Assembly: GCA_947624225.1 (NCBI GenBank)
Contig: CANQJF010000015.1
Span: forward strand, 1-46,814
Source of the DNA: an uncultured Clostridia bacterium
GTDB taxonomy: Bacteria > Bacillota > Clostridia > Christensenellales > Borkfalkiaceae
Direction of reading: 5' to 3'
Length of the DNA stretch: 46,814 nt
Shown here: piece by piece, positions 6,316 to 46,811 of the stretch
How the letters are laid out: each line of letters opens with the position of its first letter
How positions within the stretch are numbered: position 1 is the stretch's first letter
The notes under the pieces: model-generated
Told to the model about the DNA's origin: nothing
The model's input: the letters and a program-made list of their open reading frames with translations, nothing else
Database searches by the model: none
Position numbers and translations under genes: made by a program

Positions 6316-6329
6316 GATTGTTGCTCCAT

Positions 6330-6346
6330 ACGGGCTCGGAGCCCGT
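6330..6346 (-). promoter_or_regulatory. Leader hairpin abutting the ribosome binding site
   Basis: ACGGGCT-CCG-AGCCCGT is a perfect 7-bp stem ending two bases before the GGAG site of the 920-residue protein gene. It could modulate translation or protect the 5' end of the message. Confidence 0.6.
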
Positions 6347-6370
6347 GACATTTTCAAAATTATCTTTTAT

Positions 6371-20300: not shown

Positions 20301-20632
20301 ACCGCGCCTGAAGCGATCTTGTAGTCTTTCTTGATGTCGGTGAGTTTGAGCATGGCGGGCTCACCGTGTTCGGGCGTCCCGTTTTCGGGATGTCTTTTGA
20401 GGGGCGCGGGACTCTGCGCGGGGGCCCCTTGAACAAATTGCCCATACCCATATCCGGGGTTCGCCTGTCCGTAATACCCTTGGGCATAGTAGCCCCCATA
20501 GGTATAAGGGACATAGGGCGTCCCCGCCGCGGGAAAGCTGCCCTGCCCGCTCCAAGCGGCGGGCGTACCGCAATACGGACAGAAGTTACTTCCGTCCGCA
20601 AATACCCTTCCGCATTTTGTACATTGTGCCAT
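17363..20632 (-). CDS. MacB/FtsX-type ABC transporter, fused ATPase-permease with N-terminal zinc ribbon
   Basis: The 1089-residue polypeptide joins three parts. Residues 1-25 are a zinc ribbon (C4, C7, C18, C21), followed by a Gly/Tyr/Pro-rich linker to about 90. Residues 94-320 are a LolD/MacB-type ATPase: Walker [10 protein letters not shown] (131-139), signature [10 protein letters not shown], Walker [14 protein letters not shown]-loop THN. The FtsX/MacB permease has TM1 near 360, a roughly 570-residue extracellular domain, then three TMs and the FtsX motif [19 protein letters not shown]. Such proteins use ATP to move the external domain and drive export or signalling rather than classical translocation. 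AGGAGG precedes the ATG at 20632. MarR lies 51 bp upstream and the small ORF 57 bp downstream. The substrate is unknown; peptides or antibiotics are typical. Confidence 0.9.
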
Positions 20633-20682
20633 TCTATATCCTCCTCTTTCGCGGAAGGCCATGAGCCTCTCCGTAATTTTTT

Positions 20683-30934: not shown

Positions 30935-31720
30935 TCAGCGCCTCGAACGGAAAGGCAGGGAGATGATGAGGGCGAGCAGCGCAAACACGAGCGCGATGGC
31001 AAAAAAGCTCAAAAGATACCCCGCGGCCACCATGCAATACTGCGTGAACGTATTGAGCACGGGCATGGAGATGAGCCCCATGATGAGGTCTGCCGCAAAG
31101 AGCAGCACTGCGACGAGCGCGAGCCCGCCGAGGGCGCCCTTGATGTCTGCCCCGCTCAAAGTCATGTGCAGGGAAAGGAGCATCCCGATGAGCAAAAACA
31201 CCCACCACTGCCATTGCACAGCATAGGAGAAAAACACGCCGATGGCATGAAAGAGGCATACCATGACCGAGACAAAGCCTTCGGAAAGGTTGATGTTGCC
31301 GATTGCCGAGAAGAACTCGGAGGTCATGGCGGGCAGCAGCAGCCACGCCACGAGATAGAGGAGCGCCGTGATGACGACGATGGGCGCAATGCCGATGAAG
31401 AAGTTCCCGATCTGCTGGTAGATGTTGCGGCGGTTGTAGGTATGCGCGACATAGCCGAGCGTGCCGTCCTCGTCGCTCACCTGAAAGAGCTTCATATCCA
31501 CGATCTTGTGCCCGAAGAGAATGCACATCAGCGCGTGCGAGAGCTCATGCACGGGGGTGCCGAAGAAGCCCGTGATGTAGCACACGGCCCTCCCCCGCCG
31601 CCCGAAATTGCCGTAAAAGGCGCGGTTGCAGCACGCGATCAAGAACCCGAAGAGGAAGATGACCCCCACCGTAAACACGAGCTGCAAGAGAAAACTGATG
31701 AGAATATCCACAAATACCAT
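30935..31720 (-). CDS. Polytopic membrane protein with HExxH motif (M50-like metalloprotease candidate)
   Basis: The 261-residue protein has five or six membrane segments. An HExxH zinc motif (H58-E-L-S-H62, in GTPVHELSHALMCILFG) lies next to the second segment, in the pattern of site-2/M50-type intramembrane or membrane-embedded proteases. A later NxxPxxx-like segment (FFIGIAPIVVITALLY) may supply the third ligand, but the canonical LDG motif is absent, so catalysis is uncertain. GAGGGAG precedes the ATG. It lies downstream of the lipoprotein operon, 162 bp after a bidirectional terminator, and converges on the deacetylase gene 32 bp away. It may be a DUF3267-like membrane protein without protease activity. 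Confidence 0.65.
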   Translation of the reverse strand: MVFVDILISFLLQLVFTVGVIFLFGFLIACCNRAFYGNFGRRGRAVCYITGFFGTPVHELSHALMCILFGHKIVDMKLFQVSDEDGTLGYVAHTYNRRNIYQQIGNFFIGIAPIVVITALLYLVAWLLLPAMTSEFFSAIGNINLSEGFVSVMVCLFHAIGVFFSYAVQWQWWVFLLIGMLLSLHMTLSGADIKGALGGLALVAVLLFAADLIMGLISMPVLNTFTQYCMVAAGYLLSFFAIALVFALLALIISLPFRSRR

Positions 31721-31828: not shown

Positions 31829-31862
31829 GAAAAGAGCGGGACGGAACCCGCTCTTTTTTTTG
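31829..31862. terminator. Bidirectional hairpin terminator after the lipoprotein operon
   Basis: AAAAGAGCGGG-ACGGAA-CCCGCTCTTTT with eight T bases on the plus strand and four on the minus strand. It terminates the long minus-strand operon 21 bp after its last stop codon, yet is stronger in the plus direction, where no gene is seen. Confidence 0.75.
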
Positions 31863-31882: not shown

Positions 31883-34800
31883 TCAATACCAAGCGTAACC
31901 GCCGTTGAGCCACTCATCCAGCCACTCGTCGAACCAATCGTCCCAATCCCCGCCGGCATTCTCGGGAGGCGTGACGTGCACGCCATCTTCGTCGAACGAT
32001 ACCGTGTACTGGTAGTCATAGGAGGTGACGAGGTAGGTGCCGTCCTCCTGCACCGCCGTCGACGAAACGGGCATGTAGGTCAGCGCATAGTTGTAGTAGT
32101 CGGCATAGAGCATATACGCCACTTCGAACACGGCCCCGTCCTTGTAGACGGCAACGAGGTAGTCGCCCCAATCCGCGTCCACATAGGTGGTTGCGGTGCG
32201 CACTTCGGCCACGGCGGCCTCATAGTCGACGATTGCATTGCCGACGGTCGTGGTGTTCTCGGTGAACGTCACCGTGAGGAGCTCCTCGGTGTTATTGTTG
32301 TCGTCCTCGGAGAGCACGAGGATGGCCTTGTTCTGGGCGGCATAGATATCCACGCATTCAACGTTCTCGTTGGTGACCGCGTCCTTGACCGCGACCGTGT
32401 ACAGCCCGCCGACGTCGTAATACTCGGAGGAAATGACCCGATCCGCCGTGATCTCATATTTGCCCGTCGTGTCCGTGAGCGTCTGCCTGCAAGTGAGGGC
32501 CACCGCGTCGAACATGTAGATCCCATAGAAGAAAGCATACGTCGGGTCGATGTCGTAATAGAGGAAATACTGCTCGCCGTTGTGCTCGAAGGCAACGGTG
32601 TACAGGCCCGTATAGATGTCCTCGGGTACCTCGCAAACACCGTTCTCAAAGCTGAGGATGGGATCGCCGTTTCTGTCGGTGAGGCCGAAGTCTGCGTCGA
32701 ATTCGCCGTTCATCAACTCCTGTCCGTCGCCGATCGGCGCCCCGGCTGCGTCATAGTTGGTCCACGATTGCAGGATGCCGTATGCGCCATTGTAGCTCAT
32801 CATGTAGTCGGAGGCGTAATACACCATGCCGCTTCGCATGGCGGTGACGGCGTAAGTGCTGCCGCTCTCGCCCTTATAATCGATGGCGATGGAGAATTCC
32901 AGCGTCTCGCCGTAATCGTTGAGCACGGAGACCGTAAACTGCCCCTCCTTGCGGGAGATCGTGCAGACGGTTTGCGAATCGGCGCCGTCGACCGTCAGGA
33001 TGATGCGGCCCGTCGCGGTGAAGTCGCCGCCGTTGCCCGGGATGAATATGAGGTTCCCGGCCGTGGTGCCGTCGTCAGCCCCCATGCCCTCGGGGATGGG
33101 ATAGGCGCCCGCGTTGGACTGAGCGCGCTCAAAAGTGATGCTGTAACCGTCGTTTCTGAAATAGTGCTTGCCCTCGAAGTCGATCTCGGAGTTGAGGATG
33201 CCGAAAGCGCGCTCCACAAAGCCGTATTTGTTCTCCACGTCGCCCTCTTTGCGGTCCTTTAAGGAGCTTGCGGGGTAGTAGAGCGTGACGTTGTCATCGT
33301 CGGCAATGCTGTAAAAGACGGTGTCGTCTCCATAGGTGAGGGTGCCGAGGCTGGAAAAGAGGAGCGCATCGAAATCCTTGGTGTAGTAGCCGGTCTCATC
33401 ATAGTCGACCTCCACCATCTCGCCATTCTCGGAATCGAGGGCAAAGAGGTATTCCTGCGTCTCGCTCATGTCGAGATAATAGATGAGATCCTCGTCGATG
33501 ATGTAGTAGGTGCCCTGCTCTATGAGGCCGTTTTTGAGCAAACGCTCTGCGCCGCCGAAGCCGTCGAGGTAGAGGACCGTCCAATCCGACCTGTTGAGAT
33601 AGACGTTCACCGTCTCCTCATAGTAGACATTGAAGAATGCAATCGTGATGGAGCCGAGGCTCTGGACCATCCTCGCACCCACGAGCGTATCGTGCTTGGA
33701 GGGGTCATCCGTGTAGGTGAATTCGAGCGCATAGAGCCCGTCGTCGCGGAGGGAATAGGTCCCCTTCGCAACCGTCTTGGTGGTCGTCGTGTCGCCGTCC
33801 TTTTCATCCAGCAAGATCGTGAGGCCGTTCTTGCCGTCAAAGACGTAATATTCGTCGGCGAGATCCCCGTTCTTGATCACGAGATATTCGCCGTATTCCC
33901 CGCCGATCTTCTCATACGTGAGGGCGCCCTCCTGCGTGGAGGAGATGCTGAACAGGAATGCCGTCGTCTGATCGAGACTGAGGAACAAATAGATGTCCTC
34001 GTCATAGACGGCATAGCTGCCCGCTTGTGCGGGGCCGCCGTTTGCGGGCGTGTAATATGCGTCGAGATAGCCGTCGAGGATGAGCTCGCCGTCCTTTGCG
34101 GCGGCGTATGTCCCCGCCATTTCATCCTCGCGGATGCAGTAGCTCACACCGGTGCTCGCGTTGGTGTAGAAGCAATAGTGGAAAGTGAGCTTGGAATCCT
34201 TGGAGGTGAAAGTGTAGATGTCGAACTTCAATCCCTCAAAGGCCGCAAAGTCTTTCTTGTAAAGGGCATAGGTGCCCTCCGTCTTGTTGAGGACGTATTC
34301 ATTCGTGTCGGGATCCTTCGTCAGAACACAGTAGTCGGCGCCGTCCGTGCCATAGGTTTGGATGAAGCTGTTGCCCGTCACGGTGCCCGACTTCTCGACC
34401 TCATAGAGGTAGGTCACGATCTTGAAAGTCTTTGCCGTCTCGTCGAGCTCGACGTCGAGTTCCCCGAGTTCATCGCCCTCGAAGAATGCGACATAGCTGC
34501 CGGTCTCGTCCTCTTGGTACACCCCCTCGTGCTTCTTGCCCTCTTTGTCCGTGTAGACGGCATAGCCGTTGGTGATGTCGAGCGTCTGTCCCTCGGCGCC
34601 CGCCGTGCCCTTGTACTGCGCGGAGAGCAACTGCTTCTGCTCTGCGCCGTCGAGCGTGACGGAGGACCAGAACATGAGCGTGACCATCCCGTTCGTGGTA
34701 TTGAGCGTGATCGAGGTGAACTCGAAGCCCGCCAATTTGGAGAGCGAGAAAGGAAGAGGAACGAGATTTGTGTCGCTCTCGATCTTCTCCGTGACGGTGG

Positions 34801-36931
34801 CGGTGTAGACTTTCGTCTCCTCGTCATAGGCGAGCGTGCCCGAGGCGATCTCTACCAAGTTGTCGTCCTCGGTCTGGCCATACAGCGTGAACCCGCCCGG
34901 ACTGGAGGGATCCTGCCCCGCGATCATGTAGGGATAGCCGTATCCCTCGTTTTGGGAATAATAGTATTCTCCATATGTGTCGGCGTACTGCTCATAGTAG
35001 TACATATACATGCCGAAGATGGAGGGCTCCATGAACAGCGAGAACACTTTGGTGTCGTATCCGCCGTCATCCCGTTCGATATAGAGATAGAGAATTGTTT
35101 CCGAATTGCCGTATTCGACGTCGTAATAGCCCTCGGTCTCCTCCGTCCCCACGGTGAACGTGGCGCCGCCGAACCCGTCGAGCGTGAGAACGCCATCGCC
35201 CTCATACTCGTGGAAGCCGCCGGCGAGCGAATAGTCAAAGTAGGCATAGAAAGTACTGTTGCCCTCCGTCAGAATGGCAAAGACACCCCAGATCTGCTGG
35301 TAAATTTGGTCGGCAAGGATGAGAACGGGGAAATCGAAGGACTGCTCATCCATCTCATAGAGGAAGGACTGCTGCGTTCCCTGCTGCTCGTCTATGACGG
35401 TGGCAATGCCCAACCCGTTGAGCTCGATGGTCATCCCGAAATCCTTCTTTTCGCCCAAGAGATAGTAGTAAACTCTCTTGGCGCCGCTCGAAACTTCCTC
35501 GTCGTTGCGGACCATGAACACTTCCACCGTCCCGCTCTGCACGGTGCTGCGGAGGAAGATGAAGTTCTCGCCCGAAGTGAATTGGGTGTGATAGTAGCCG
35601 TCCTCGTCGATGAAATAGGTGCCGCTCTGCGAAGAGGAGACGACCCCGTCCGCATCCGTGACGGTGTATGTAATGCCGTTGTATTCATCAAACTCCATCG
35701 TCACCCCGTCGATGAGGTCGCCGCCCTGATAGAGGGTAGCCGTCCCCTTGCGTGCATCGTTCTCATAGCAGAAGAAGCCGTCGCTTGCAAAGACGCGGCA
35801 GGTGAGGATGGTGCGGTTGTTGGAGGCAAAGGTGTAGACATTGCTCGCGGCCGAGCGCCCCACAAAGAGATAGCCCGCGCGTTCGAGATAGATGGTCTTA
35901 CCCACGAGGAAGATGTGGTCGTTGCCGCCGAAGATATCCACACAGGGCGACTGCCACACGGCATAGAGGATGGTCCTCTCGGTGAGCGTGTACTTATCCG
36001 CGGCGGGTTTGGTGCCGTTGAGGACGTCATGCGAGACATGGTATGCCTCTTTGCCGTCGGAGGTCTCGCTCCAACCCGTCAGAAGATGGCCGTCGCGCTT
36101 GAACGTATCGGCGGGGAGCTCGATCTCTTCCCCGTATTTGCCCGTGACGGTGTCGCTCTCTGCATCCTGCGAGGCGTCCGAGCGCAAGAATACGGTGATC
36201 TCCTTGCGGTCATAGTAGAGGACAAAGGCATTCTTGGAGGGATCGTTTGCATCGAGCGTGCCCGAGCGATGGTCCCCCGCGTGCTCCACGACCTCGAAGC
36301 CCTCGGGCGCATAGTCCACCGTGAAGGGCGTTCCGTCCGCATATGCAAAGCCCTGATAGTCCTCGACCTGATTGTATTTGCTCCCGTCTTTGAGATCCTG
36401 CTGGAAGATCTTCACGGAATAGCCCACCTTGTAGTGCGCCGTGAGCGTGAGGTCTTGCTCGGGCATCTTGGCGTTCTTGGAGAGGGGCGTGGTGCCGCTC
36501 AGCCATTCACCGAATTCAAAGCCCTCTTTTTCGGGGACGCGATCTGCCAAGGCCGCCGCCAAGTCTGCTCCCTTTTTGAGGTAGAACGTGTGGGCAGAGG
36601 GATTGCCGTCTCCCACATCCAGCGTGACGAGATACATCTTCTCCCACTTGGCATAGAACGTCTTGCTCTCCTCCGCCTTTTGGGTGACGACGGGCTCGCC
36701 CGTGAACGAGGGATCGAGATACCATCCCTCAAAGCTATACCCCTCCCATTCGGGCGTGGGAAGCGTGCTCTCTTCGCCCGCTTCAAGCTCGATCGCGGGG
36801 ACCTCGGGAGCCCCCTCGCCCGTGACGAAGTTGAATTTGATCCCGCTCTCTCCGCATGCGGCCACAGCAAGGCACAGCATGGCGATGAGAGACAGGATGC
36901 CGATCCAAAGACTTCTTCTCATCTTTTTCAT
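31883..36931 (-). CDS. Giant InlB-repeat surface lipoprotein (1682 residues)
   Basis: A lipoprotein signal peptide ends at lipobox VAAC with lipidated Cys26. Three InlB B-repeat/Flg_new-type units follow (GYSFEGWYLD..FYAKW near 64-97, GFEFGEWLSG..LTAHY near 135-167, GHLLTGWSET..LYAVW near 276-327). About 1300 residues of degenerate beta-rich units with the motif L-x-L-D-G-F-G-G-A and G-x-Y follow (for example VLYLDGFGGAERLL, GVLTLDGFGGATFT, GTYYIIDEDLIYYL). There is no LPxTG or C-terminal membrane segment. The last residues, DWFDEWLDEWLNGGYAWY, are acidic and aromatic. It is predicted on the outer face of the membrane as an adhesin or glycan-binding fibre. AAGGAG is present; it is last in the MoxR operon, 27 bp after the LRR gene. 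Confidence 0.85.
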   Translation of the reverse strand: MKKMRRSLWIGILSLIAMLCLAVAACGESGIKFNFVTGEGAPEVPAIELEAGEESTLPTPEWEGYSFEGWYLDPSFTGEPVVTQKAEESKTFYAKWEKMYLVTLDVGDGNPSAHTFYLKKGADLAAALADRVPEKEGFEFGEWLSGTTPLSKNAKMPEQDLTLTAHYKVGYSVKIFQQDLKDGSKYNQVEDYQGFAYADGTPFTVDYAPEGFEVVEHAGDHRSGTLDANDPSKNAFVLYYDRKEITVFLRSDASQDAESDTVTGKYGEEIELPADTFKRDGHLLTGWSETSDGKEAYHVSHDVLNGTKPAADKYTLTERTILYAVWQSPCVDIFGGNDHIFLVGKTIYLERAGYLFVGRSAASNVYTFASNNRTILTCRVFASDGFFCYENDARKGTATLYQGGDLIDGVTMEFDEYNGITYTVTDADGVVSSSQSGTYFIDEDGYYHTQFTSGENFIFLRSTVQSGTVEVFMVRNDEEVSSGAKRVYYYLLGEKKDFGMTIELNGLGIATVIDEQQGTQQSFLYEMDEQSFDFPVLILADQIYQQIWGVFAILTEGNSTFYAYFDYSLAGGFHEYEGDGVLTLDGFGGATFTVGTEETEGYYDVEYGNSETILYLYIERDDGGYDTKVFSLFMEPSIFGMYMYYYEQYADTYGEYYYSQNEGYGYPYMIAGQDPSSPGGFTLYGQTEDDNLVEIASGTLAYDEETKVYTATVTEKIESDTNLVPLPFSLSKLAGFEFTSITLNTTNGMVTLMFWSSVTLDGAEQKQLLSAQYKGTAGAEGQTLDITNGYAVYTDKEGKKHEGVYQEDETGSYVAFFEGDELGELDVELDETAKTFKIVTYLYEVEKSGTVTGNSFIQTYGTDGADYCVLTKDPDTNEYVLNKTEGTYALYKKDFAAFEGLKFDIYTFTSKDSKLTFHYCFYTNASTGVSYCIREDEMAGTYAAAKDGELILDGYLDAYYTPANGGPAQAGSYAVYDEDIYLFLSLDQTTAFLFSISSTQEGALTYEKIGGEYGEYLVIKNGDLADEYYVFDGKNGLTILLDEKDGDTTTTKTVAKGTYSLRDDGLYALEFTYTDDPSKHDTLVGARMVQSLGSITIAFFNVYYEETVNVYLNRSDWTVLYLDGFGGAERLLKNGLIEQGTYYIIDEDLIYYLDMSETQEYLFALDSENGEMVEVDYDETGYYTKDFDALLFSSLGTLTYGDDTVFYSIADDDNVTLYYPASSLKDRKEGDVENKYGFVERAFGILNSEIDFEGKHYFRNDGYSITFERAQSNAGAYPIPEGMGADDGTTAGNLIFIPGNGGDFTATGRIILTVDGADSQTVCTISRKEGQFTVSVLNDYGETLEFSIAIDYKGESGSTYAVTAMRSGMVYYASDYMMSYNGAYGILQSWTNYDAAGAPIGDGQELMNGEFDADFGLTDRNGDPILSFENGVCEVPEDIYTGLYTVAFEHNGEQYFLYYDIDPTYAFFYGIYMFDAVALTCRQTLTDTTGKYEITADRVISSEYYDVGGLYTVAVKDAVTNENVECVDIYAAQNKAILVLSEDDNNNTEELLTVTFTENTTTVGNAIVDYEAAVAEVRTATTYVDADWGDYLVAVYKDGAVFEVAYMLYADYYNYALTYMPVSSTAVQEDGTYLVTSYDYQYTVSFDEDGVHVTPPENAGGDWDDWFDEWLDEWLNGGYAWY

Positions 36932-36958
36932 AACTTATCTCCTTACCGAAAAGGTTTC

Positions 36959-39910
36959 TCAAAAATAATCGTCGCCGAACAGGTCGTCGAATCCGGGGAA
37001 CACGGGAGTATTGCCCGGCGTTTCGGGATCCTCCTCGGGCTCTTCGGGCTCGCCCTCCTCCCAGACGGCATAGAGCGTGACGTCATCGAGCGCTCCGTTG
37101 ACCCATTGCACCAGCCATTCGTTGGCGTCATAGACGACGAGTTCGCCCCCCTCCGACGTGGCCCAACCCACAAAGGTGTAGCCCGCCCGCACAGGGCCCT
37201 GCATGCCGCCGCGCGCATAGGGATTGGTGAGATTTTCGGCGCTGACGTCTATGGAAGTCACGTATTGCTCCTCCGAGACCGCCGCATTCCAGACCACGGG
37301 GCGGAACGCGGAGTTCCAGCGCGTGTTCCAATATTTTCCCTCCGTCTCCGAGCTGTCCGCCGCGATGTAGAACGTGAGGTTGGAGCTGCCGTAAAAGGCG
37401 TGCATGCCGATCTCCTCGGGGATGCCGAGCATCAGAACGGAGGCGAGACGGAATGTGCTCTTGAATGCATAGTCGTCCACCCATTGGAGGGAAGCGGGGA
37501 GCACGAGGGAGCGGATGGCCGTATTCCCGAAGGCATACGTGCCAATGTATTGCACCCCTTCGCCGAGGTCAAGGGAGGAGAGTGCGTCGCAGTGGTAGAA
37601 CGCGTAGCCGCCGATTTCGAGGACGGTATCGGGCACCGTCACCGACGGCAATGCCGTGCAATATTGGAAAGCGCCCGCGCCGATGGCTTGCAGGCCCGCC
37701 CCGAAAGTGATGCTTTCGAGCGCGGCACAGTTGGCAAACGCATTGGCGCCCACATAGACCAAGCTGTCGGGAAGCACGAGGTCTTTCACCTTGTCGATCC
37801 CATAGAACGCGGCGTCTCCGATGTATTCGAGCGTCTCGCTGAGCAAAACGCTGCCGACGTTGGTGCAATTGTAGAAAGCGTTGTCGCCGATCTCTTTCAC
37901 ACCCGTGAGTGAGAGGTCGATGGCCTCCAACCCGCTGCACTCATAGAAAGCGCGAAGCCCTATGGTTTCGAGGTAGAGGGGCATTTTGACGCTGACGAGC
38001 CCCGTGCAGCCACTGAAAGCGTTGTCCGAGATCTCGGTGAGGTCGACGCTGAGGGCGACCTCGGTGAGCGCCGTGCAGTCGAAGAATGCGCCGCGGCCGA
38101 TGTGCAGCGCGCGGTCGAGGTTCTCCACGCTCACGAGCTCGTCGTTTTTATAGAAAGCATAGTCGGCGATCCCGACGATGTCGTCGTCGAGCACGATATC
38201 GGTGTGCGACGCGACGGTGTCCTTATTGAAGCCCACCACCCAATTGCAGGCATACACCACGCCGTCCGTCTTGGCCGCATCCGTCCACCGCCCCGAATTG
38301 TTGAAAGCATAGGTGCCGATGCGCTCCACCGTGTCGGGGACGAGGCTGCCCGTGCGGTTGGATTCGTTCTTTGTGAGCGAGCTGCATTGCCAGAAAGCAT
38401 AGCTCCCGATGTCGCGCAAGCCGTCGCGGAAGCGCACCGTCTGCAAATTGGTGCAGCCCTGAAAGGCATAGTCCCCGACGGAGACGAGTTCGCTCCCTGC
38501 CTCTGCCGTAAAGGAATTGAGTTTGAGGCAGCAGTAGAACACGTTCATGCCGATGTAGCGGACGCTCGCCGCCAGCTCCACCGTGAGCAGTTGGGGCGCC
38601 CCTTGGAAGATGACGGTGCCCCTATCGTTGACCGTGCTCAGCACGAAGAGCTCGTTGGCAAGGCCGACGGTCCCCTCCCGGAGCAGATCGGGCGTGAAGT
38701 TTTGCAGAGTGGCCTTTAACTCATCCGTTGCCTCGACGACCCAGTCGCCCGCATAGATGAAGCCGTTGCCCTCGGCGGCCTGCGTCTCATAGAGCGCGGT
38801 GCCGTGGAACGTATACGACCCGACGGCCGTGACCGTCTCGGGGACAGTCACCTTAGCGAGGCTTTCACATCCATAGAATACGGCATCTCCGAGCAGCTCC
38901 GTGCCCTCGGGGAGCTCGATGCTTTTGAGCGCGGTGCAGCCCTGAAAGACGCTGCCGCCCAATTGCAGGGCCTCTGTCTCCTGGAACGTGACGCTTTCGA
39001 GCGCGGTGCAGTTGCTGAATGCGAGCTGGTCCACCCCCCACAGCCCGCTCCCGAACGAGACGGAGGTGAGTGCGGTGTCGCCGTCAAAGGCATTCTGCCC
39101 GACGTAATACACGAGATCGGGGCAGGCGATGCTCTCCAATGCCGAACAGTTGTAGAAAGCGCATGCGCCGATGTAGTAGACCGTCTCGGGGATCTCCACC
39201 TGTGTGAGCGCACGGCAATAGGCGAACGCAAAGTCGGGAATGACCGAGAGTTGGGCGGGCAGCCTGACGGACGCGAGTTTGGAGCACCCCTGAAAGATGT
39301 TCGCCCCGATGGAGACCACCGAATCGGGCATGGTCACCGAGGTGAGGTTGGTGCAGTTATAGAACGCGCCGTCCCCGATCACTCTCACGCCCTCGGGGAT
39401 GACGATGGAAGAGATCCTCCTCGTCGTGCGGAACGCGTTCTCGGCGATGGCCGTGACGGGTTTGCCGCGGTAGACATTCTCCAAGACGACGTCTCCCGAT
39501 GCCGTGCCCACGCCCGTGACGGCATACTCCGTGTTGCCGTTAAAGACGGTGTAGAGGAGGCCGGATTCCCTGTCGCGGTGGAACTCCACCGTCTCGGACC
39601 AATCCGAAGTGACCTCGTTGTTGCTGCCGCCGACGGCCATGACCTTGATCTCATAGTCCCCCTCTGCGAGGTGCGCGAGGGAGATGTGGGTGACGCGCGA
39701 GGGAATCTCCTCCTCATAGTTGCTGTCCACGCCCGTAACAAGCACATTGTAGCTTCGGGCAGCGGGCACAAACCGCCAATAGAGCGTGTATGCGTCGTCT
39801 ATCACGAAATTTACGGGCGTATCCAGCGGGACCGTCCGCGTGCAGGCAGCGGCAAAGACAAGCATCACGGCAGCCAAGAGGATGGTTGCAATATACTTTA
39901 ACTTCTTCAT
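36959..39910 (-). CDS. BspA-type leucine-rich-repeat surface lipoprotein (983 residues)
   Basis: Signal peptide with lipobox FAAAC; Cys23 is the predicted lipidation site. A fibronectin-III-like segment (about 30-115; YTLYWRFVPAARSYNVLVTG) is followed by 25 or more LRR_5 units of the BspA type (consensus IGxxAFxxCxxLxxVxLPxxLxxI; e.g. VSIGANIFQGCSKLASVRLP). These run to about residue 885. An InlB B-repeat unit closes it (AGYTFVGWATSEGG..LYAVW), then a Glu/Pro spacer and the tail FPGFDDLFGDDYF. BspA-type LRRs bind host matrix proteins or other bacteria. The ATG overlaps the preceding gene's stop as ATGA, so translation is coupled to the VWA protein. It is unusual for a surface adhesin to be coupled to a MoxR/VWA machine. 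Confidence 0.9.
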   Translation of the reverse strand: MKKLKYIATILLAAVMLVFAAACTRTVPLDTPVNFVIDDAYTLYWRFVPAARSYNVLVTGVDSNYEEEIPSRVTHISLAHLAEGDYEIKVMAVGGSNNEVTSDWSETVEFHRDRESGLLYTVFNGNTEYAVTGVGTASGDVVLENVYRGKPVTAIAENAFRTTRRISSIVIPEGVRVIGDGAFYNCTNLTSVTMPDSVVSIGANIFQGCSKLASVRLPAQLSVIPDFAFAYCRALTQVEIPETVYYIGACAFYNCSALESIACPDLVYYVGQNAFDGDTALTSVSFGSGLWGVDQLAFSNCTALESVTFQETEALQLGGSVFQGCTALKSIELPEGTELLGDAVFYGCESLAKVTVPETVTAVGSYTFHGTALYETQAAEGNGFIYAGDWVVEATDELKATLQNFTPDLLREGTVGLANELFVLSTVNDRGTVIFQGAPQLLTVELAASVRYIGMNVFYCCLKLNSFTAEAGSELVSVGDYAFQGCTNLQTVRFRDGLRDIGSYAFWQCSSLTKNESNRTGSLVPDTVERIGTYAFNNSGRWTDAAKTDGVVYACNWVVGFNKDTVASHTDIVLDDDIVGIADYAFYKNDELVSVENLDRALHIGRGAFFDCTALTEVALSVDLTEISDNAFSGCTGLVSVKMPLYLETIGLRAFYECSGLEAIDLSLTGVKEIGDNAFYNCTNVGSVLLSETLEYIGDAAFYGIDKVKDLVLPDSLVYVGANAFANCAALESITFGAGLQAIGAGAFQYCTALPSVTVPDTVLEIGGYAFYHCDALSSLDLGEGVQYIGTYAFGNTAIRSLVLPASLQWVDDYAFKSTFRLASVLMLGIPEEIGMHAFYGSSNLTFYIAADSSETEGKYWNTRWNSAFRPVVWNAAVSEEQYVTSIDVSAENLTNPYARGGMQGPVRAGYTFVGWATSEGGELVVYDANEWLVQWVNGALDDVTLYAVWEEGEPEEPEEDPETPGNTPVFPGFDDLFGDDYF

Positions 39911-42774
39911 TTCTTTTCCGCCTTCTTTGCTCTGTGTTCCCGAACCAACTCGTGGATCCACTTGAATTTGAATTTGCGCACGGCAATGTCGCCGAGGAAG
40001 AGCACCATTGCGATGATGATGAAGATCAAGCGGGGATCGAAAGAGCGGTGGAGCGACGTCACGAACGAATCAAAGACCTTCCACGGCTCCTCCTCCGAGA
40101 CGGCCATGCCGTTGCCGTTTTCGGCGAGGAGGCCGAGGGTCTCCTGCCCGCTCATCTCCTGCCCGTCGAGGAAGCTATCGTATTCCTCGGAATAGGAGAA
40201 TGCCTTGTAGATCTCCGCGGTGGCCTGCAAGTTGCCGTCCGCATTGTATTTCTCGATGAGGATCTTGTAGATCCCGCTCTGCTTGATGACAAAGTCGCAG
40301 CGGGAGAATCTGTTCTGTTCGGTGAGGAAATCGGTGACGTAGACGCCCGCCGTGGCCCCCGTGTCCTCGTTCATCGAACAGCCCTCTTCGCTCTCCCCGC
40401 CCGATGCGGGCAAGATCTTGCCTTGGATGTACTGTCCCTCGTTCAGCGTCGTAAAGACGTTCACGCGGTTGATGTAGTTGCCCTCTTCCAGCTCCAACCT
40501 GATCTCGCCCGGGCGGAGGTCCTCCGTGGGCATGAGGTTGGCGATGACGTTATACAGGAACTGCCTGCCGTTGGCGTCGGCCATGAATTGCGTCGACCAG
40601 CTCGATGCGCTGCCGTCGAGGTCGCAGAGGAAGCTCCCCACCATGCCCTTTCCGTATTTCCACTGGGCATAGATGGGCACGCCGTAGTCCCCGACGAGGA
40701 GCACTTCCGCGCTCTCGCGCTTCTTCACACCGAAGAATCCCGAGAGGGTGACATCCATCTGCAACTTGTTCTCGCCCATCATGCCATACTCCACATTGTG
40801 GAAGAGGGGCGAACGCGCGTCGTTGACGACGGGGGCAAATTCTTGGTATTTGAATTCCGTGATCTGGGGCGCGTTGAGATCTTCACGCATCTCCGCCATG
40901 ATGCCCGCACCCGTGTCCGTGGGGTGCAGGTTTCCGCCGGCCGCCGCAACGAGGGCAGACATGTCTTTGTAGGCACTGTTGTCACCCTCGCGGATGCCGA
41001 TCCCGATGACGGACAGCGTGATGCCGCTCGTCTTGTAAAAGTTCTCCGCGATGGGGATATAGTCCTCGGGTTTGTCGTTGTCGCTCGGCATGCCGTCGCT
41101 CACGATGACGATGTGGCGCTTATCCACGTTTTGCAGCTGGCGAAGGCGCTCGCCCGCCGTCTTGATGGCATCCGAAAAGACGGTCGCCTCCCCCTCGCCG
41201 ACGTTGCGGATGGCTTCGCGGATGCGGGAGACCTCCGTGAGCGAGGTGGGATTGAGCACGACGCCATAGTTGCTGTCCAAAGTCATCACACCGACGTAGT
41301 CGCGCTCGGTGAGCACTTCGAGACATTCGAGGGCGCCCTGTTGCGCGTAATAGAGGTTGGTATTGCCGGCGCCGTCCTCGACCATCATGGAGCCCGAGAT
41401 ATCGATGACGAACATGACGGCCACGGGGGGCGTGTAATCGATGACCTGCACGGGCAGCATGTCTTGATAGAGCGTGTTGTAGAGGTCGGCGCGGTTATAG
41501 GCGTGCGCCTTGGCGTCGCTCCCATCCCCCTCCTTGCCGCCGACGGTGAACAGGCCGCCGCCGTAATCGGAGACATAGGAGTTGAGCATCTTGACGAACC
41601 AATCCTTGGCATCCCTTTCATCCAGCTCCTCGGGCGCATCCAATTTCCTCAGGTCGGCATTGGAGACGTTGTTGAGGATGATCTGGTCATAGCGGCGCAA
41701 GTCGTCCACCGATTGCGGGATATCCGTCTCCGTTTCGAGATTGAGGATGTCCACGTTGTCCTTGTAGATGTCCAAATCGGTGAGCATGGATCTGAGCGCC
41801 TCGGATTCCCCTCCCTTGTGCTCGATGATGAGCACATGGCTGAACACTTCGAGGAAGTAGTAAGAGGAGAAATCGTTGTTGTAGACAAAGCTGTCGTTTG
41901 CGTCCGAGATCTTCACCGCGATCTCGTGCAGCCCCACCGTGTCGAAGCAGGTGTTGAACGGAATGCTCTGCGTGCCCGCGGAGAGGTCCAGAGTCTGCTG
42001 CATCCCCTCGGCCAGCTCACCGTTGTCATAGACCTGCACCGTCGTTCCCGGCGACGCCTGCTTGCATTGCAGGTTGACCGTGAGCGTGAAGTCCTCCCCC
42101 TGGTTGATGTGATACGCGGGATACTCCACCCCCACCGTCTGCACTCTGTCCTCCGTGAATTCGGAGGAGATATACACCGTGTCGACGAGGATGCCCTGCC
42201 GCGCAACGGCGCCGATGGCCGCATTGGCCTCCTCATCCGTCTCCTTGCCGTCGGAGATGAGGACGATCTTGGCCGTCTCGGGATTCTCGAACAGCTCCTG
42301 CGAGGCGACAAACCGGAGCGCCGCGGCGATGTCCGTCGCACTCGTGTCGGGCAGTTCGGCCGCCTTGTAGGCGGCATAGACGCTGTTGGTATCATAGGTG
42401 AGCGGCACGGCATAGTGCTGATCGAAACCAAAGGTGACGATGCCGATCTTGTAGCCGTCGTAACCGCTCTCGGTGACGATGCTCTGCACGAATTGGTCCC
42501 GCCGCTCGGCCGAACGCTGCTCGGTATCCGAGACGTCGACGAGGAGAATGATCTCGTTTTCGAGGTTGGCGACGTCATAGGTGAACGTGATCCCCGCAAG
42601 CACGCAGATGCACAGCACCATGACGATGGAGTGAAAGACGAGGGAGACGATGCGGTTGCGCGTCCTCCTGAACCGCTTGTTGACCATGAGGTACAAGACG
42701 AGCGTCAGCGCAAAGGCGGGAATGAGAAGCAAGAGAAGCCAAGGATATTCGAAATGAATGGCAAAATTTCGCAT
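39907..42774 (-). CDS. Membrane protein with two VWA domains and an amidotransferase-like domain
   Basis: The 955-residue protein has two N-terminal membrane segments (about 10-30 and 42-62). A first VWA-like domain (about 72-205) has a degenerate MIDAS, D80-V-S-D-T. An Ig-like region follows, then a class-I glutamine-amidotransferase-like fold (about 310-445; FSHVLIIEHKGGESEALRSML, SDYGGGLFTVGG) without a clear catalytic Cys. A second VWA domain has perfect MIDAS D458-I-S-G-S462. A C-terminal membrane segment (LIFIIIAMVLFLGDIAV) and basic tail close it. The layout fits the large VWA proteins found downstream of MoxR-DUF58-BatA genes. The ATG at 42774 has AAGGAGGAG upstream and lies 10 bp after the BatA-type gene. 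It is expected to span the membrane with metal-binding VWA domains outside. Confidence 0.88.
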   Translation of the reverse strand: MRNFAIHFEYPWLLLLLIPAFALTLVLYLMVNKRFRRTRNRIVSLVFHSIVMVLCICVLAGITFTYDVANLENEIILLVDVSDTEQRSAERRDQFVQSIVTESGYDGYKIGIVTFGFDQHYAVPLTYDTNSVYAAYKAAELPDTSATDIAAALRFVASQELFENPETAKIVLISDGKETDEEANAAIGAVARQGILVDTVYISSEFTEDRVQTVGVEYPAYHINQGEDFTLTVNLQCKQASPGTTVQVYDNGELAEGMQQTLDLSAGTQSIPFNTCFDTVGLHEIAVKISDANDSFVYNNDFSSYYFLEVFSHVLIIEHKGGESEALRSMLTDLDIYKDNVDILNLETETDIPQSVDDLRRYDQIILNNVSNADLRKLDAPEELDERDAKDWFVKMLNSYVSDYGGGLFTVGGKEGDGSDAKAHAYNRADLYNTLYQDMLPVQVIDYTPPVAVMFVIDISGSMMVEDGAGNTNLYYAQQGALECLEVLTERDYVGVMTLDSNYGVVLNPTSLTEVSRIREAIRNVGEGEATVFSDAIKTAGERLRQLQNVDKRHIVIVSDGMPSDNDKPEDYIPIAENFYKTSGITLSVIGIGIREGDNSAYKDMSALVAAAGGNLHPTDTGAGIMAEMREDLNAPQITEFKYQEFAPVVNDARSPLFHNVEYGMMGENKLQMDVTLSGFFGVKKRESAEVLLVGDYGVPIYAQWKYGKGMVGSFLCDLDGSASSWSTQFMADANGRQFLYNVIANLMPTEDLRPGEIRLELEEGNYINRVNVFTTLNEGQYIQGKILPASGGESEEGCSMNEDTGATAGVYVTDFLTEQNRFSRCDFVIKQSGIYKILIEKYNADGNLQATAEIYKAFSYSEEYDSFLDGQEMSGQETLGLLAENGNGMAVSEEEPWKVFDSFVTSLHRSFDPRLIFIIIAMVLFLGDIAVRKFKFKWIHELVREHRAKKAEKK

Positions 42775-42784
42775 GATCTCCTCC

Positions 42785-44782
42785 TTACCTATTTTCGCGC
42801 GCGTGGAGGAACCACTCCACAAAGAGCAAGCCAACGAGGACAGACGCAAGAATGATGAGCAAATCGCGATAGAACGTCTCCGGCTCCGTGCCCTCATACG
42901 GGTCGGCCAAGCTGTCCTCTGTTTTTAAAATATTACTCTCCGCTGCGGGCGGCCTGATGAAGATATCGGTGGCGATCACCTCGTCGCTGTAATAGGTCGT
43001 CTGCGTGAAGCGATAGGAGCCCGGGATGTCGAGAGAGAGGGTCGCGGGGAGCTCCTCCGCGGAGAAAGTCTGTTCGGGCTGCGTGAGCGTGATGCTCTCG
43101 CCCCATGCGTTCAAGGTGAATTCCTCCCCCACTTCGAAGGAGCTGCCGCTCAAAACGGTGGGGAAAAAGTATTCGATGAGCGAATACATGAGGAGGAAGT
43201 TTTCGGGCAATTTGGCGAGCGTGGAATTGTGGATGCTGAATGACATCACACCGATTTTGTTGGCTCCGTCGTTGCGCACCATGAGCATGGGGTGGCTGTC
43301 ATAGGAGAGCAGCACGTCATAGGCGGAATCGTACTCGACGATGCTGTCATAGGAGGTGATCTCGATGTTGTCTGCCATGATATAGCGCATCACGGGATGG
43401 CCCTCGAAGTCCTCCCCCTCCGCGAGCGAGACGCTCTCGTTCAGCGTGTTGACCTGAGACACCGTGAATCCCGCCTCGGCCGCCACCGCGCCGCTGCCCT
43501 TGTCGTAAGTGGGATCGGGATCGAGGAGCAAAATGGCGCCGTCCGTGGGGAGATGCGCGGGCATCTCATGCTCGAAGATGTAGAGATCGAAGCCTTCGAG
43601 GATGGGATCTGCGTGCCACTTGATCTCGGTGATATCCAGCTCGAAGTTGTTGCGCGCGGCAAGGGCATTGCCCGCCTGTGCGAGCGCCGTCTGGATGAAA
43701 GGATTGGGCCCCTGTGCGCCGCCGCTGAAATATTCCACCTTGATGCGCTGTTTGATGCCGCCATAGAGGTAAAAGACATTGTCCACGGCATAAGAATCGT
43801 CTGCTTCGATGCCGATGCGGATGGATTCGTACGAGAAGAACTTCTCGGTATCCAGCATGTCGTAAAAGTGCAGATCGTCCCCGTCCTGTCCGCCGCCGAC
43901 GCGGAAGATGACCGTTTTGACGGCATCGGCGTTGCAATCCACGGGTTCATCGAACGAGATGGTCTCCCCGGGATTGGCCGAGGCGGGAATGGCGTTGGCG
44001 CCGTCGACATAGACGCTCACATTGAGCTCCTGCGAGATGCCGTAACTTGCCACCTGCACGGTGAGAGTGTAATACCCGTCCTCGAGCGAGGCCTGTGCAT
44101 TGAGAATGGCCGCATTCCACTCCGTGTCGTCGCGGATGAGCTCCACATTGACGCGGTCGGGCAGGTGGCCGTATTGGGTATCCGTGAAAAAGACGAGCTG
44201 GGCGCTCGGGTTTTCGAGCAGCACCTGCTTTGCGAGGGCGAGGGAGGAATCGACGTCCGCGACCGCATAGGAGGCGCCGCCGCTCGCGAGCGTGTCGAGA
44301 TCGGAGAGCAGCTTCATGCGGCGGGAGGAATCCACTCTGCGCGCAAGGAAATAGGGTTCGCCGTTTGCCACGATGACGGTGACTCTGCCGTCCTCGGTGA
44401 GCACGCTGTCCGCACGGCCGCGGACTTGCTCCAACGCGCGGTCGAAGCGGGTCACTCCCTCCGTCTCGGCGTGCATGCTCGCCGAAGCATCGAGGATATA
44501 GATGACGTCTGTGTCGTCGGTCACGTTGCGGTCCACGAGGGAGGGCCATGCCATGATCAACGCCATTGCCGTCAAGATCAAAAGTTGGCAGATGAAGAGG
44601 ATGATGTTGCGGATCCTGTTGACGGGCGGGCGCCGTCTCTTGTAGTTGAGGCTCAGTTTCCAGATGTAGGTACTCGTGACGGCCTTGGTCTGATAATTGG
44701 GGCGGATGAGGTAGATGATGATGAGCACCGCGATCCCGATGAGCCCCAAGAGCCCCAAAGGCACCAAAAGTTCAAAACTCAT
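42785..44782 (-). CDS. BatA-type membrane protein with VWA domain
   Basis: The 665-residue protein begins with the BatA N-terminal domain: TM1 at 7-26, a basic loop (NYKRRRPPVNRIRN), TM2 at 59-80. A VWA domain follows with MIDAS D98-A-S-A-S102 and FFTDTQYGHLP near 200. The middle section (about 340-450) resembles the amidotransferase-like fold of its neighbour. A C-terminal membrane segment (LLIILASVLVGLLFVEWFL) ends at ARENR. BatA-type proteins work with MoxR and DUF58 partners in envelope stress or assembly of surface complexes. The start overlaps the DUF58 stop as ATGA (44779-44782). Confidence 0.88.
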   Translation of the reverse strand: MSFELLVPLGLLGLIGIAVLIIIYLIRPNYQTKAVTSTYIWKLSLNYKRRRPPVNRIRNIILFICQLLILTAMALIMAWPSLVDRNVTDDTDVIYILDASASMHAETEGVTRFDRALEQVRGRADSVLTEDGRVTVIVANGEPYFLARRVDSSRRMKLLSDLDTLASGGASYAVADVDSSLALAKQVLLENPSAQLVFFTDTQYGHLPDRVNVELIRDDTEWNAAILNAQASLEDGYYTLTVQVASYGISQELNVSVYVDGANAIPASANPGETISFDEPVDCNADAVKTVIFRVGGGQDGDDLHFYDMLDTEKFFSYESIRIGIEADDSYAVDNVFYLYGGIKQRIKVEYFSGGAQGPNPFIQTALAQAGNALAARNNFELDITEIKWHADPILEGFDLYIFEHEMPAHLPTDGAILLLDPDPTYDKGSGAVAAEAGFTVSQVNTLNESVSLAEGEDFEGHPVMRYIMADNIEITSYDSIVEYDSAYDVLLSYDSHPMLMVRNDGANKIGVMSFSIHNSTLAKLPENFLLMYSLIEYFFPTVLSGSSFEVGEEFTLNAWGESITLTQPEQTFSAEELPATLSLDIPGSYRFTQTTYYSDEVIATDIFIRPPAAESNILKTEDSLADPYEGTEPETFYRDLLIILASVLVGLLFVEWFLHARENR

Positions 44783-45678
44783 GACATGATACCTGCCTTT
44801 AAAAGCTCACCGAACAGCACGCGTTCGATTGCCGTGTCCGTGGAGACGGAGATATAGCCCGCCTCCCGCCTCGTGCAAAAGTTGCGCATGTCCTCACGAA
44901 AATCGGACAGCGCCGCCTGGTATGCCTCCAACATCCCCCGCGTGATGCGGAGCTTCATGTTCCTCGGGTCCTCCACGTCCAACGACTCGGAGTCCATCAG
45001 GTGCACGCGCCCCTCATACGCCGGCTCCAATTCCTCCGGGGTGAGCACTTGCAACAAGAGCACTTGCCGCTTCTTGTAGCAGAGATAGTCCACCGCCTTC
45101 TTCCAATCGCTCTCCGTGCAAAAGTCGGAGATGATCACCGTGAGCCCGTTGTTCTCACTCACGTTTGCGCAACTTGTGATGCAGCTGTATAGGTCCGTCT
45201 CGCCGTCGAACTTGATCTCCTCCAACGTTCCGATCGCGCGGAAAAAGGAGTTCTTCCCCACGATCGTCCCGAACGGGTCGTTCGCGCGCGTGCCGTGCAT
45301 GAAGTACATGTTCAATTTATCCATGTTCTGCACAGCCAAAAAGCCCAGCGCTGCCGTCGCCGCCACACAGTACGAAGCCTTTTGCGGACTATCCTTTCCC
45401 ATCGATCCCGAGCAGTCTAAAAAGATCTGCACCTGCATCTGCCGCTCGTCCGTGAAAAGTTTTAAAAAGTACTTCTCAAACCGGCTGTACAGATTCCAAT
45501 CGATCCTACGGATATCGTCCCCAAGCTGATATTCCCGGTAATCGGAAAACTCCACCGTCTGACCGTACGTCTTGACCAAGTGTTTCCCGCCGAAATATCC
45601 CGCAAGGCTGGATCTTAAATTCAATGACATCGTCTCCAACCGACTGAAAAACGCGTCATTCAGCTCGTTTTGTTTCAT
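44779..45678 (-). CDS. DUF58 (VWA-like) protein
   Basis: The 299-residue protein shows the DUF58 signature FSDYREYQLGDDIRRIDWN (residues 44-62) followed by a VWA-like MIDAS, D88-C-S-G-S92. There is no membrane segment, so it is cytosolic or peripheral. DUF58 proteins are the constant partners of MoxR ATPases and are thought to link ATPase to membrane VWA proteins. It is 14 bp downstream of the MoxR gene, and its stop overlaps the BatA-type start. The site before the ATG (GGAGTAAAGG) is acceptable. Confidence 0.93.
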   Translation of the reverse strand: MKQNELNDAFFSRLETMSLNLRSSLAGYFGGKHLVKTYGQTVEFSDYREYQLGDDIRRIDWNLYSRFEKYFLKLFTDERQMQVQIFLDCSGSMGKDSPQKASYCVAATAALGFLAVQNMDKLNMYFMHGTRANDPFGTIVGKNSFFRAIGTLEEIKFDGETDLYSCITSCANVSENNGLTVIISDFCTESDWKKAVDYLCYKKRQVLLLQVLTPEELEPAYEGRVHLMDSESLDVEDPRNMKLRITRGMLEAYQAALSDFREDMRNFCTRREAGYISVSTDTAIERVLFGELLKAGIMS

Positions 45679-45692
45679 CCTTTACTCCGCGC

Positions 45693-46811
45693 TTACTTCT
45701 TCCCGAACAGTCCTTTCTTCTTCTTTTTCTCTTCTTTCGGCTCGTCCGGCTCCTCTGCCGTCTCCGCCGGCACGATCTCCGCTTCCGCCTCCGCCGGCAC
45801 CGGCACTGCCTTGGCGCCCGGGATCTTCTGCTTGCGCCCCACTTCTTCCAAGATCTTGCCGATCACGTCGTCTGCCGTCACGCGCTCCGCGATTGCCTCG
45901 AAGTTCAGCTTGATCCTGTGCCGCAACACGGGATATGCGAGCTCGTTGATATCCGAATAGGCCACGTTGAAGCGCCCCTTGATGAGCGCCATGACCTTGG
46001 CCGCCGAGATGAGCGCCTGTCCCGCACGCGGGGATGCGCCCAAGCGCACGTATTTCTTCGCCGCGTCGCTCGCGCACTCGCTGTCCGGGTGCGTCGCCGA
46101 CGTCAAAATCATTGCATACCGCAACACTTCCTCCGCAACGGGGATCTGGTTGGCCGTCGCGCGCATCTGCAAGAGCTGTTCGCCCGTGCATGCCTTGTCC
46201 GCAACTTCCGCCATCGTCTTTTGCGTCATGCTCACGATCTCCATCAGTTCGTCGAGACCGGGGTTGGGCACCAACAGCTTGAACATGAAGCGGTCCATCT
46301 GTGCCTCAGGCAGCGGATAGGTGCCGTCCTGCTCGATGGGGTTCTGCGTCGCCAACACGAAAAACGGCTCAGACAATTTGCGGGACACACCCATGACCGT
46401 GACCGTGTGCTCCTGCATGGCTTCGAGAAGTGCCGACTGCGTCTTGGGCGTTGCACGGTTGATCTCATCCGCCAAGATGATGTTGCTGAACACGGGGCCC
46501 GGCTGGAATGAGAACTTGGAGTTTCCGTCCTCTCCCTTTACAATGATGTTGGTACCCGTCACGTCCGCCGGCATGAGGTCGGGCGTGAACTGGATGCGCG
46601 CGAACGGCAGATCGAACACGCGCCCCAATGAGCGCACGAGCCTCGTCTTGCCGACGCCCGGCACGCCTTCGAGCAGCACATTGCCGCCCGCGATCATGGC
46701 GATCACCGTCCCCTGTACCACCGATTCCTGCCCGATGATATCCCGCGAAAGTTGGTTGAAGATCTCTTCGCATTGTTTGCTGAATTGTTTGATGTCGTTT
46801 TCCGTTACCAT
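45693..46811 (-). CDS. MoxR-family AAA+ ATPase
   Basis: The 372-residue ATPase has Walker A GVPGVGKT (49-56), Walker B IILADEIN (111-118), sensor-1 ATQNP (154-158) and the MoxR block GTYPLPEAQMDRF. The lid domain contains LGASPRAGQALI. MoxR proteins act as chaperones that remodel or load metal onto VWA-domain partners. A family-atypical extension (about 328-372) is Pro/Glu-rich and ends in a lysine cluster, EEKKKKKGLFGKK, which could touch the membrane. The ATG is three bases from the right window edge, so its ribosome binding site is not visible and an upstream start cannot be excluded. First visible gene of the operon. Confidence 0.93.
   Translation of the reverse strand: MVTENDIKQFSKQCEEIFNQLSRDIIGQESVVQGTVIAMIAGGNVLLEGVPGVGKTRLVRSLGRVFDLPFARIQFTPDLMPADVTGTNIIVKGEDGNSKFSFQPGPVFSNIILADEINRATPKTQSALLEAMQEHTVTVMGVSRKLSEPFFVLATQNPIEQDGTYPLPEAQMDRFMFKLLVPNPGLDELMEIVSMTQKTMAEVADKACTGEQLLQMRATANQIPVAEEVLRYAMILTSATHPDSECASDAAKKYVRLGASPRAGQALISAAKVMALIKGRFNVAYSDINELAYPVLRHRIKLNFEAIAERVTADDVIGKILEEVGRKQKIPGAKAVPVPAEAEAEIVPAETAEEPDEPKEEKKKKKGLFGKK

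Follow-up and report, generated by a model that had tools for sequence, protein, structure and literature searches.

The window analysed in this study is a stretch of 46,814 nucleotides, contig CANQJF010000015.1 of the assembly GCA_947624225.1 from an uncultured Clostridia bacterium. We examined a row of six minus-strand genes in it, which encode a MoxR-family ATPase, a DUF58 protein, two membrane proteins with von Willebrand factor A (VWA) domains (a BatA-type protein and a larger one, called the VWA protein below) and two lipoproteins, one with leucine-rich repeats (LRR) and one with InlB repeats. Of 125 non-redundant loci of this type that could be evaluated, 109 have the gene of the LRR lipoprotein directly 3' of the VWA gene. 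The linkage of the LRR gene to the machine is strongly supported, and it is larger than an earlier reading of the same DNA (the original prediction) had reported. We think, with a probability of about 0.6, that the array encodes one envelope complex, in which the lipoproteins would be dedicated partners and the engine would remodel or load the outer assembly.

Conservation of the LRR gene next to the VWA gene

A search with the BatA protein gave a match in 37 of 81 genomes, the source genome included. The profile of the VWA protein was confirmed at 245 places in the named genome collection, and the best 80 were kept. The genomes of these kept loci are metagenome-assembled genomes (MAGs), mostly of uncultured Clostridia, with sources such as "Lapin" (presumably rabbit), roe deer, goat, water deer, yak and others, and many are labelled cecum or rumen. 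They include Candidatus Borkfalkia faecipullorum and Christensenella sp. UBA7597; Candidatus Borkfalkia is placed in Christensenellales by NCBI. An evenly drawn search across the order covered 297 genomes of 125 genera and gave matches in 45 of the genomes and 18 of the genera.

The pooled stretches held 177 VWA genes, or 152 without duplicates. Those with a VWA profile score above 360 were called type A (130 loci), and five without downstream room were set aside to give the 125 evaluable ones. A locus was counted as linked when the gene that comes next on this strand, at most 300 nt away, bears LRR motifs. The genes were called by a home-made codon-bias caller with motif flags, and Pfam checks on subsets (33 of the 109 LRR genes and 21 of the 75 InlB genes mentioned below) agreed with it. 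Its errors included the LRR gene of L054, which was missed and then recovered by a frame check, and the VWA gene of L177, which was split; at L117 the contig ends within a lipoprotein gene.

The VWA-LRR junction overlaps or abuts in 53 of the 109 linked loci. The order-wide search had 31 type A matches, of which 25 were newly fetched and some are identical with the 80 kept loci. The LRR gene follows the VWA gene in 23 of the 25 newly fetched loci (L227-L251), which cover six family-level groups, and also in five fetched earlier (G000 twice, G030, G034 and G076); one match, G103:C3, was left out of the count. These results agree with the original prediction in that the LRR lipoprotein gene is neither absent nor random at the orthologous clusters. 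Chance adjacency was rejected as an explanation. The source genome (1.9 Mb) has about 30 open frames with LRR_5, four of them in its two arrays (150 of 191 candidates were scored), and such a number cannot yield 23 of 25.

The second place, after the LRR gene, is held by the InlB lipoprotein in 75 of the 109 loci and by an unrelated large secreted protein in 21. In the 23 order-wide loci the corresponding numbers were 10 and 8, and no second gene was present in five. A lipoprotein of immunoglobulin (Ig) type, unrelated to the InlB lipoprotein, can stand in this place. Because another large secreted protein is second in so many loci, the InlB lipoprotein is replaceable, and we rejected the idea that both lipoproteins are equally dedicated. 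The original prediction had named the last two genes as natural candidates for dedicated clients; the linkage is firm for the LRR lipoprotein, and the InlB lipoprotein is the commonest second partner but an exchangeable one.

Directly after the InlB lipoprotein gene, a subtilase relative was found in 15 of the 54 loci with a gene called there (for example, L160:20601-22859). The L160 protein, the one examined with Pfam, has Peptidase_S8 and PA domains. The subtilase relative is possibly a processing enzyme.

Features specific to the lipoproteins of the array

The LRR lipoprotein consists of a lipobox, an Ig-like N-terminal module, an LRR_5 array and a C-terminal InlB-like repeat, the last of which scores below the Pfam cut-off in the window protein. 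LRR_5 was matched in all 33 LRR lipoproteins tested and Fn3 in two of them, and the lipobox residue Cys23 is invariant in the 33 aligned. In the InlB lipoprotein, both the invariant Cys26 and a Flg_new match were found in 21 of 21 proteins, and residues 325-1130, taken from its long remaining region, had no match in the Protein Data Bank (PDB) at E <= 1. The motif rule called a lipobox in just 89 of the 109 LRR and 62 of the 75 InlB proteins. The lengths of the proteins are narrow, being 958 +/- 40 aa for the LRR lipoprotein (n = 107), 1,688 +/- 49 aa for the InlB lipoprotein (n = 66) and 935 +/- 44 aa for the VWA protein (n = 128).

The profile of the operon LRR lipoproteins spans positions 3-939 in one piece in five held-out members (1,099-1,259 bits), relatives of which were in the training set. 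In contrast, it matched only in pieces in seven non-operon LRR proteins (six from the source genome and one from G005; nine stretches were fetched). The Ig-like N-terminal module recurs in 18 of 19 giant lipoproteins encoded further upstream in type A arrays, and the nineteenth is cut at its start. The module was found in none of the seven non-operon proteins; in five of them the match is confined to the end of the module, at the beginning of the LRR part. Judged by these features, the operon LRR lipoproteins differ from the seven other LRR proteins tested.

With a cut-off of E <= 1e-40 and a span of 900 residues or more, the InlB lipoprotein had 22 matches in 20 genomes, all of them within the array. 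Forty-four genomes have no BatA match, and no such InlB match was found in any of these when six candidates were scored in each; in one, G041, residues 4-420 of the InlB lipoprotein are matched. Furthermore, an InlB-type repeat was found in the transmembrane (TM) protein encoded before MoxR in 16 of the 22 type A members examined, as against none of 10 members of the divergent type B or the outgroup. Since the linkage is conserved, the LRR family is operon-specific and only LRR-linked forms of the TM protein were seen to carry the InlB repeat, we regard the lipoproteins as very probably dedicated partners of the machine.

These findings can also be considered from the viewpoint of shared regulation only. 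That is, the machine would serve envelope maintenance, and the lipoproteins would be ordinary adhesins in the same transcript, both being needed in the gut. The roughly 26 LRR_5 frames of the source genome outside its two arrays, the replaceable second lipoprotein and the fact that other lineages have the core but no LRR gene (0 of 20 outgroup loci, see below) would all fit this explanation. However, co-transcription would need neither the overlapping or abutting junctions of about half of the loci nor an operon-specific LRR family of narrow length. It would likewise need neither a module common to the giant and the LRR lipoprotein nor an InlB repeat in the TM subunit solely when LRR-linked. 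We regard shared regulation only as unlikely.

The six genes of the window and the complete array

The features of the window are listed in Table 1. Pfam backs the naming of all six genes, and the coordinates bear out the packing that had been described, with ATGA overlaps and short gaps. The overlaps, of 4 nt, are 44782/44779 (BatA/DUF58) and 39910/39907 (LRR/VWA), and the remaining gaps are 14 nt (MoxR-DUF58), 10 nt (BatA-VWA) and 27 nt (LRR-InlB). The mechanical open reading frames of the VWA and LRR genes begin further upstream, at 42897 and 39961; we preferred the starts at 42774 and 39910 because both fit the neighbouring genes. Walker A (GVPGVGKT) and Walker B (DE) motifs are visible in the MoxR protein, and the DUF58 protein has a DxSxS motif resembling a metal ion-dependent adhesion site (MIDAS).

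Table 1. Features of the array in the window.
Feature	Positions	Strand	Length and evidence
MoxR-family AAA+ ATPase	45693..46811	-	372 aa; AAA_3 206 bits, AAA_lid_2 65, bpMoxR 38.5 (Pfam)
DUF58 protein	44779..45678	-	299 aa; DUF58 113.6 bits (Pfam)
BatA-type membrane VWA protein	42785..44782	-	665 aa; BatA PF07584 34.7 bits, VWA_2 29.9 bits
Large membrane VWA protein	39907..42774	-	955 aa; VWA_2 91 bits, GATase1_like 30.5 bits
BspA-type LRR lipoprotein	36959..39910	-	983 aa; LRR_5 585.8 bits, Flg_new 21.7 bits
InlB-repeat (Flg_new) lipoprotein	31883..36931	-	1682 aa; Flg_new 63.9 bits
Codons for VRKFKFKWIHE, C-terminal segment of the VWA protein just past its last TM segment	39949..39981	-	conserved
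Hairpin and short U run	31830..31857	-	directly 3' of the InlB gene; 11-bp stem, then UUUU

The hairpin past the InlB gene is read as the probable terminator of the operon. The 56-nt segment on this side of the gene, which includes a second small hairpin, folds with -28.3 kcal/mol (z = -5.45). A simple terminator scan missed this hairpin and flagged several minus-strand sites inside genes (19 terminator-like sites in total on both strands, against 12.7 expected). An internal promoter or terminator separating the lipoprotein genes would have refuted the original prediction, and no terminator was found at the two junctions searched: the LRR-InlB gap folds no better than its shuffles (z = +1.18), and the VWA and LRR genes overlap. 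The promoter scan was unusable, with four promoter-like matches, fewer than the 5.3 expected.

The contig stops 3 nt upstream of the MoxR start codon, and the window thus holds only the downstream part of the array. In relatives, MoxR is preceded by the gene of the TM protein. In the source genome, contigs 14 and 28 each carry this gene close to one of their ends, and it is preceded there by the gene of a giant LRR/InlB lipoprotein (3,884 and 3,251 aa, respectively). The downstream part is present once more on contig 34, which breaks off within DUF58; the source assembly has one strong MoxR (AAA_3) match only. Contig 14 probably belongs with the window, since its TM protein and the BatA protein of the window are the copies closest to genome G030, each at 64%.

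The giant gene was found 50-375 nt upstream of the TM gene in all 19 type A stretches chosen for examination. Eighteen of the giants are complete (2,889-3,884 aa, lipobox called in 15) and one is cut by a contig end. The full array is eight genes, about 26-28 kb, in the order giant LRR/InlB lipoprotein, TM protein, MoxR, DUF58, BatA/VWA, VWA, LRR lipoprotein and second large lipoprotein. The set of two candidate clients that had been proposed is incomplete, a third, giant protein being encoded upstream.

The end of DUF58 in the window (44746-45208) agrees with the copy on contig 34 (L036) in 100% of 142 aa and 97.6% of 463 nt, although the adjoining BatA proteins are only about 45% identical. 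In a second genome (L106/L145), DUF58 is 99.4% identical over partial genes. Near-identity beside so divergent a BatA points to recent recombination or gene conversion, and a strain mixture in the assembly is another possible cause. We rejected the idea that the engine is homogenised as a rule, since only 2 of 8 measurable within-genome pairs have a near-identical DUF58; the other six, at 62.6-73.6%, are close to what pairs of similar VWA identity show on average (65-68%).

Contig ends showed a pattern of their own. Thirty-three loci among L098-L177 have a contig end at most 10 kb upstream of the VWA gene, and 23 of these ends fall at 1.9-4.1 kb, within DUF58-MoxR or at its border (binomial test against a uniform distribution, p = 7e-9); the 26 downstream contig ends of L098-L177 are scattered. 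It seems that the DNA of this cytosolic pair is repeated near-identically in the same genomes or samples. Multiple copies were also met in G036 and G037 (L067-L078 and L083), with 9 and 7 BatA matches, and these are often rearranged to LRR lipoprotein, TM protein, BatA and VWA, in some followed by DUF58.

The membrane VWA proteins and a candidate docking tail

No TM segment was predicted in MoxR or DUF58. BatA and the VWA protein have three each, two N-terminal and one C-terminal, and a very basic loop between the first two. Between its N-terminal and C-terminal segments the VWA protein carries a degenerate first VWA domain, a GATase1-like domain and a second VWA domain. Membrane proteins generally obey the positive-inside rule, and because the loop is strongly basic, the VWA (and GATase-like) domains are predicted to lie outside. 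MoxR and DUF58 would then be cytosolic, and the lipoproteins would be anchored on the same outer face as the VWA domains.

The second VWA domain has kept its DxSxS MIDAS, with D458, S460, S462, T531 and D560 invariant. In the PDB, the VWA profile matched BatB (3ibs) best, with E 2e-11, and the stretch before the second VWA domain resembles 2gk3 and 3soz. In the tail of the VWA protein, R933-W939 is invariant in 28 sequences. RKFKFKW or a close form of it was found in 118 of 129 type A tails, and other types differ. We consider the VRKFKFKWIHE segment a candidate docking tail for MoxR or DUF58. An LLxAKRR-like motif, scored by eye, ends the VWA protein in 11 of 20 outgroup loci (L296-L311). Type A tails lack this motif, which may be the trace of an older docking site.

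The VWA domain with an intact MIDAS, predicted to lie outside, could also mean that the system is a switch for adhesion or uptake. LRR and InlB repeats are typical binding modules, and the MoxR-driven VWA proteins would then toggle, in an integrin-like, inside-out manner, the binding of the lipoproteins to host or dietary polymers, with assembly being secondary. A VWA protein of a Borrelia MoxR cluster is reported to bind an integrin (PMC5700661). On the other hand, no ligand is known, and most predictions of such a switch are common with those of an assembled complex and inseparable from them by sequence. We think this explanation quite improbable.

Divergent and outgroup clusters

In sixteen divergent loci of the same order (type B), the core is unchanged and the gene after it encodes a protein of 447-527 aa, predicted to be secreted or lipidated in 15 of the 16; a second protein, of 741-841 aa, comes next in 11, and none received the LRR flag. 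That unrelated secreted proteins occupy the lipoprotein place in this subtype was counted in favour of one envelope complex. Homology of the alternative type A lipoprotein to the second type B protein was rejected, as a hidden Markov model (HMM) search gave no match. The two have in common only an Ig-like region, which is Big_3 in both (hhalign 93.6% over 88 columns). In three loci of another family (L254, L260 and L261), an ABC transporter, Pfam-confirmed in L260, precedes the TM gene, and no predicted lipoprotein was seen after the core.

Of 398 genomes searched across the phylum with the VWA profile, 52 gave a match, the source genome included, and the outgroup set (L296-L315) comprises 20 stretches, one each from 20 of the other 51. 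The core gene order is as in type A in most of them. Fourteen have an ABC ATPase called upstream, and in none is the VWA gene followed by an LRR gene. These results indicate that the lipoproteins are not general clients of such machines. We therefore rejected a general client link for all MoxR-DUF58-Bat clusters. The LRR linkage is lineage-specific within a wider core cluster. The simplest history would be that an older core gained the lipoprotein part in exchange for an ABC transporter.

Comparison with known systems

The core belongs to a known kind, MoxR-DUF58-Bat. It shares MoxR, DUF58, the N-terminal domain of BatA and membrane VWA proteins with the Bat (aerotolerance) clusters of Bacteroides, Leptospira and Borrelia, and it includes an AAA_3 MoxR, an adjoining DUF58 and both BatA and BatB-like VWA proteins; the NCBIfam BatB exception model gave 27.5 bits, far under its cut-off of 350. 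Unlike those clusters, the present array has a GATase1-like domain in the VWA protein and large lipoproteins, and none of its eight genes (six in the window, two upstream) had a Pfam match to BatD or TPR (BatC/BatE) proteins. The outgroup clusters of other Bacillota differ in the ABC ATPase upstream and in the lack of the LRR gene, and no published name is known to us for this kind of cluster with an ABC transporter.

The Bat-type parts raise the question of a metal loading or aerotolerance machine, of Bat or NorQD type, in which the lipoproteins would be incidental. In NorQD, the C-terminus of the VWA protein contacts the MoxR-type ring and a linker is remodelled, and the system serves metal insertion (PMC13036017). 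However, with neither BatD nor TPR proteins matched, with no metalloenzyme among the eight genes and with surface lipoproteins as the conserved neighbours, we consider such a function very improbable.

Among published systems, the bifidobacterial PFNA operon (pkb2, fn3, MoxR, duf58 and tgm) is the nearest precedent; in it, MoxR and DUF58 genes likewise stand beside a large secreted adhesion-type protein. Its authors suggested that MoxR is possibly a folding chaperone for the large secreted FN3 protein. The BatA/VWA pair and an LRR or InlB lipoprotein are not among the parts described in the available text, which include a kinase and a transglutaminase (PMC8430577). Pfam found neither the Pkb2 kinase nor a transglutaminase in the six window genes and the two upstream genes. 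With regard to the MoxR-vWA ternary conflict systems (PMC7159879), the present MoxR passes the bpMoxR cut-off (38.5 against 27 bits) but scores far higher with AAA_3. No Pfam match to their third component (VMAP, iSTAND, FtsH or beta-propeller) or to their effectors was found in the eight genes.

The lipoproteins share LRR_5, Flg_new and the lipid-anchor cysteine with BspA-type LRR and InlB B-repeat surface proteins. Unlike those proteins, they are specific to the operon, vary little in length and are tied to a MoxR machine. We found no description of the eight-gene array among the papers listed on MoxR clusters or on BspA-like or Borkfalkia proteins; this covers mainly open papers, and an earlier description is possible.

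Proposed mechanism

We propose that the membrane VWA proteins have the lipoproteins as dedicated, stoichiometric partners and probably hold them via the MIDAS of the second VWA domain. When the MoxR ring hydrolyses ATP, this would be relayed through DUF58 and the conserved C-terminal tail of the VWA protein to the outer complex. This complex would be remodelled or loaded, so that a large LRR/InlB surface assembly would be formed or switched. By analogy with NorQD, the ring might pull the VWA proteins from inside, and the VWA proteins might act on the lipoproteins outside. The LRR lipoprotein would be the fixed partner and the second lipoprotein the exchangeable part. The folding, export coupling or assembly of the lipoproteins by the ATPase and VWA proteins, as first suggested, is a plausible hypothesis.

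Several points weigh against this mechanism. Conserved linkage can mirror co-regulation and not contact. The type A loci were drawn largely from one order, and keeping the best 80 of the 245 places tilts the sample to close relatives. Fourteen type A loci have no LRR gene after the VWA gene, namely nine copies in G036 and G037, L079-L081 (three of one subtype), L249 and L251; in the multi-copy genomes G036 and G037, a gene matching the LRR lipoprotein was called upstream of the TM gene in 6 of 8 stretches. The giant gene was not called upstream of the TM gene in the divergent L247-L249, and it may have a separate transcript, given its distance from the TM gene elsewhere. With a laxer cut-off in eight genomes, one InlB match was found outside the array (G007:C4, 82 bits, 27%, residues 3-1365). 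The absence of the LRR gene from the outgroup loci must be added to these points.

A wider version of the proposal is a modular ATP-driven surface machine of gut Clostridia. In it, a MoxR-DUF58 engine, sometimes homogenised between copies, would drive interchangeable outer modules of two membrane VWA proteins and two or three very large lipoproteins. The lipoproteins would have replaced an ancestral ABC-2 transporter, and a large LRR/InlB structure would be assembled on the cell surface by an undescribed route. We offer this version as speculative and rather doubtful.

Other genes in the window

The gene past the terminator (30935-31720) encodes a putative zincin peptidase (DUF3267) with six TM segments, and a six-TM gene of similar size follows the InlB gene in L098 and L100. 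The gene at 17363-20662 encodes a 1,099-aa protein that combines an ABC ATPase and an FtsX-type permease in a single chain, with an N-terminal zinc-ribbon match under the cut-off. The 932-aa protein encoded at 3553-6351 has two predicted TM segments and no Pfam match at E <= 0.01.

Conclusions

MoxR-DUF58-Bat machines are widespread and, to our knowledge, their clients are mostly unknown. The present findings offer named candidate proteins for what the envelope MoxR-VWA machines act on, and relatives that have the core without such lipoproteins provide a natural contrast. A lineage of the animal gut keeps specific, very large surface proteins tied to this machine over deep divergence.

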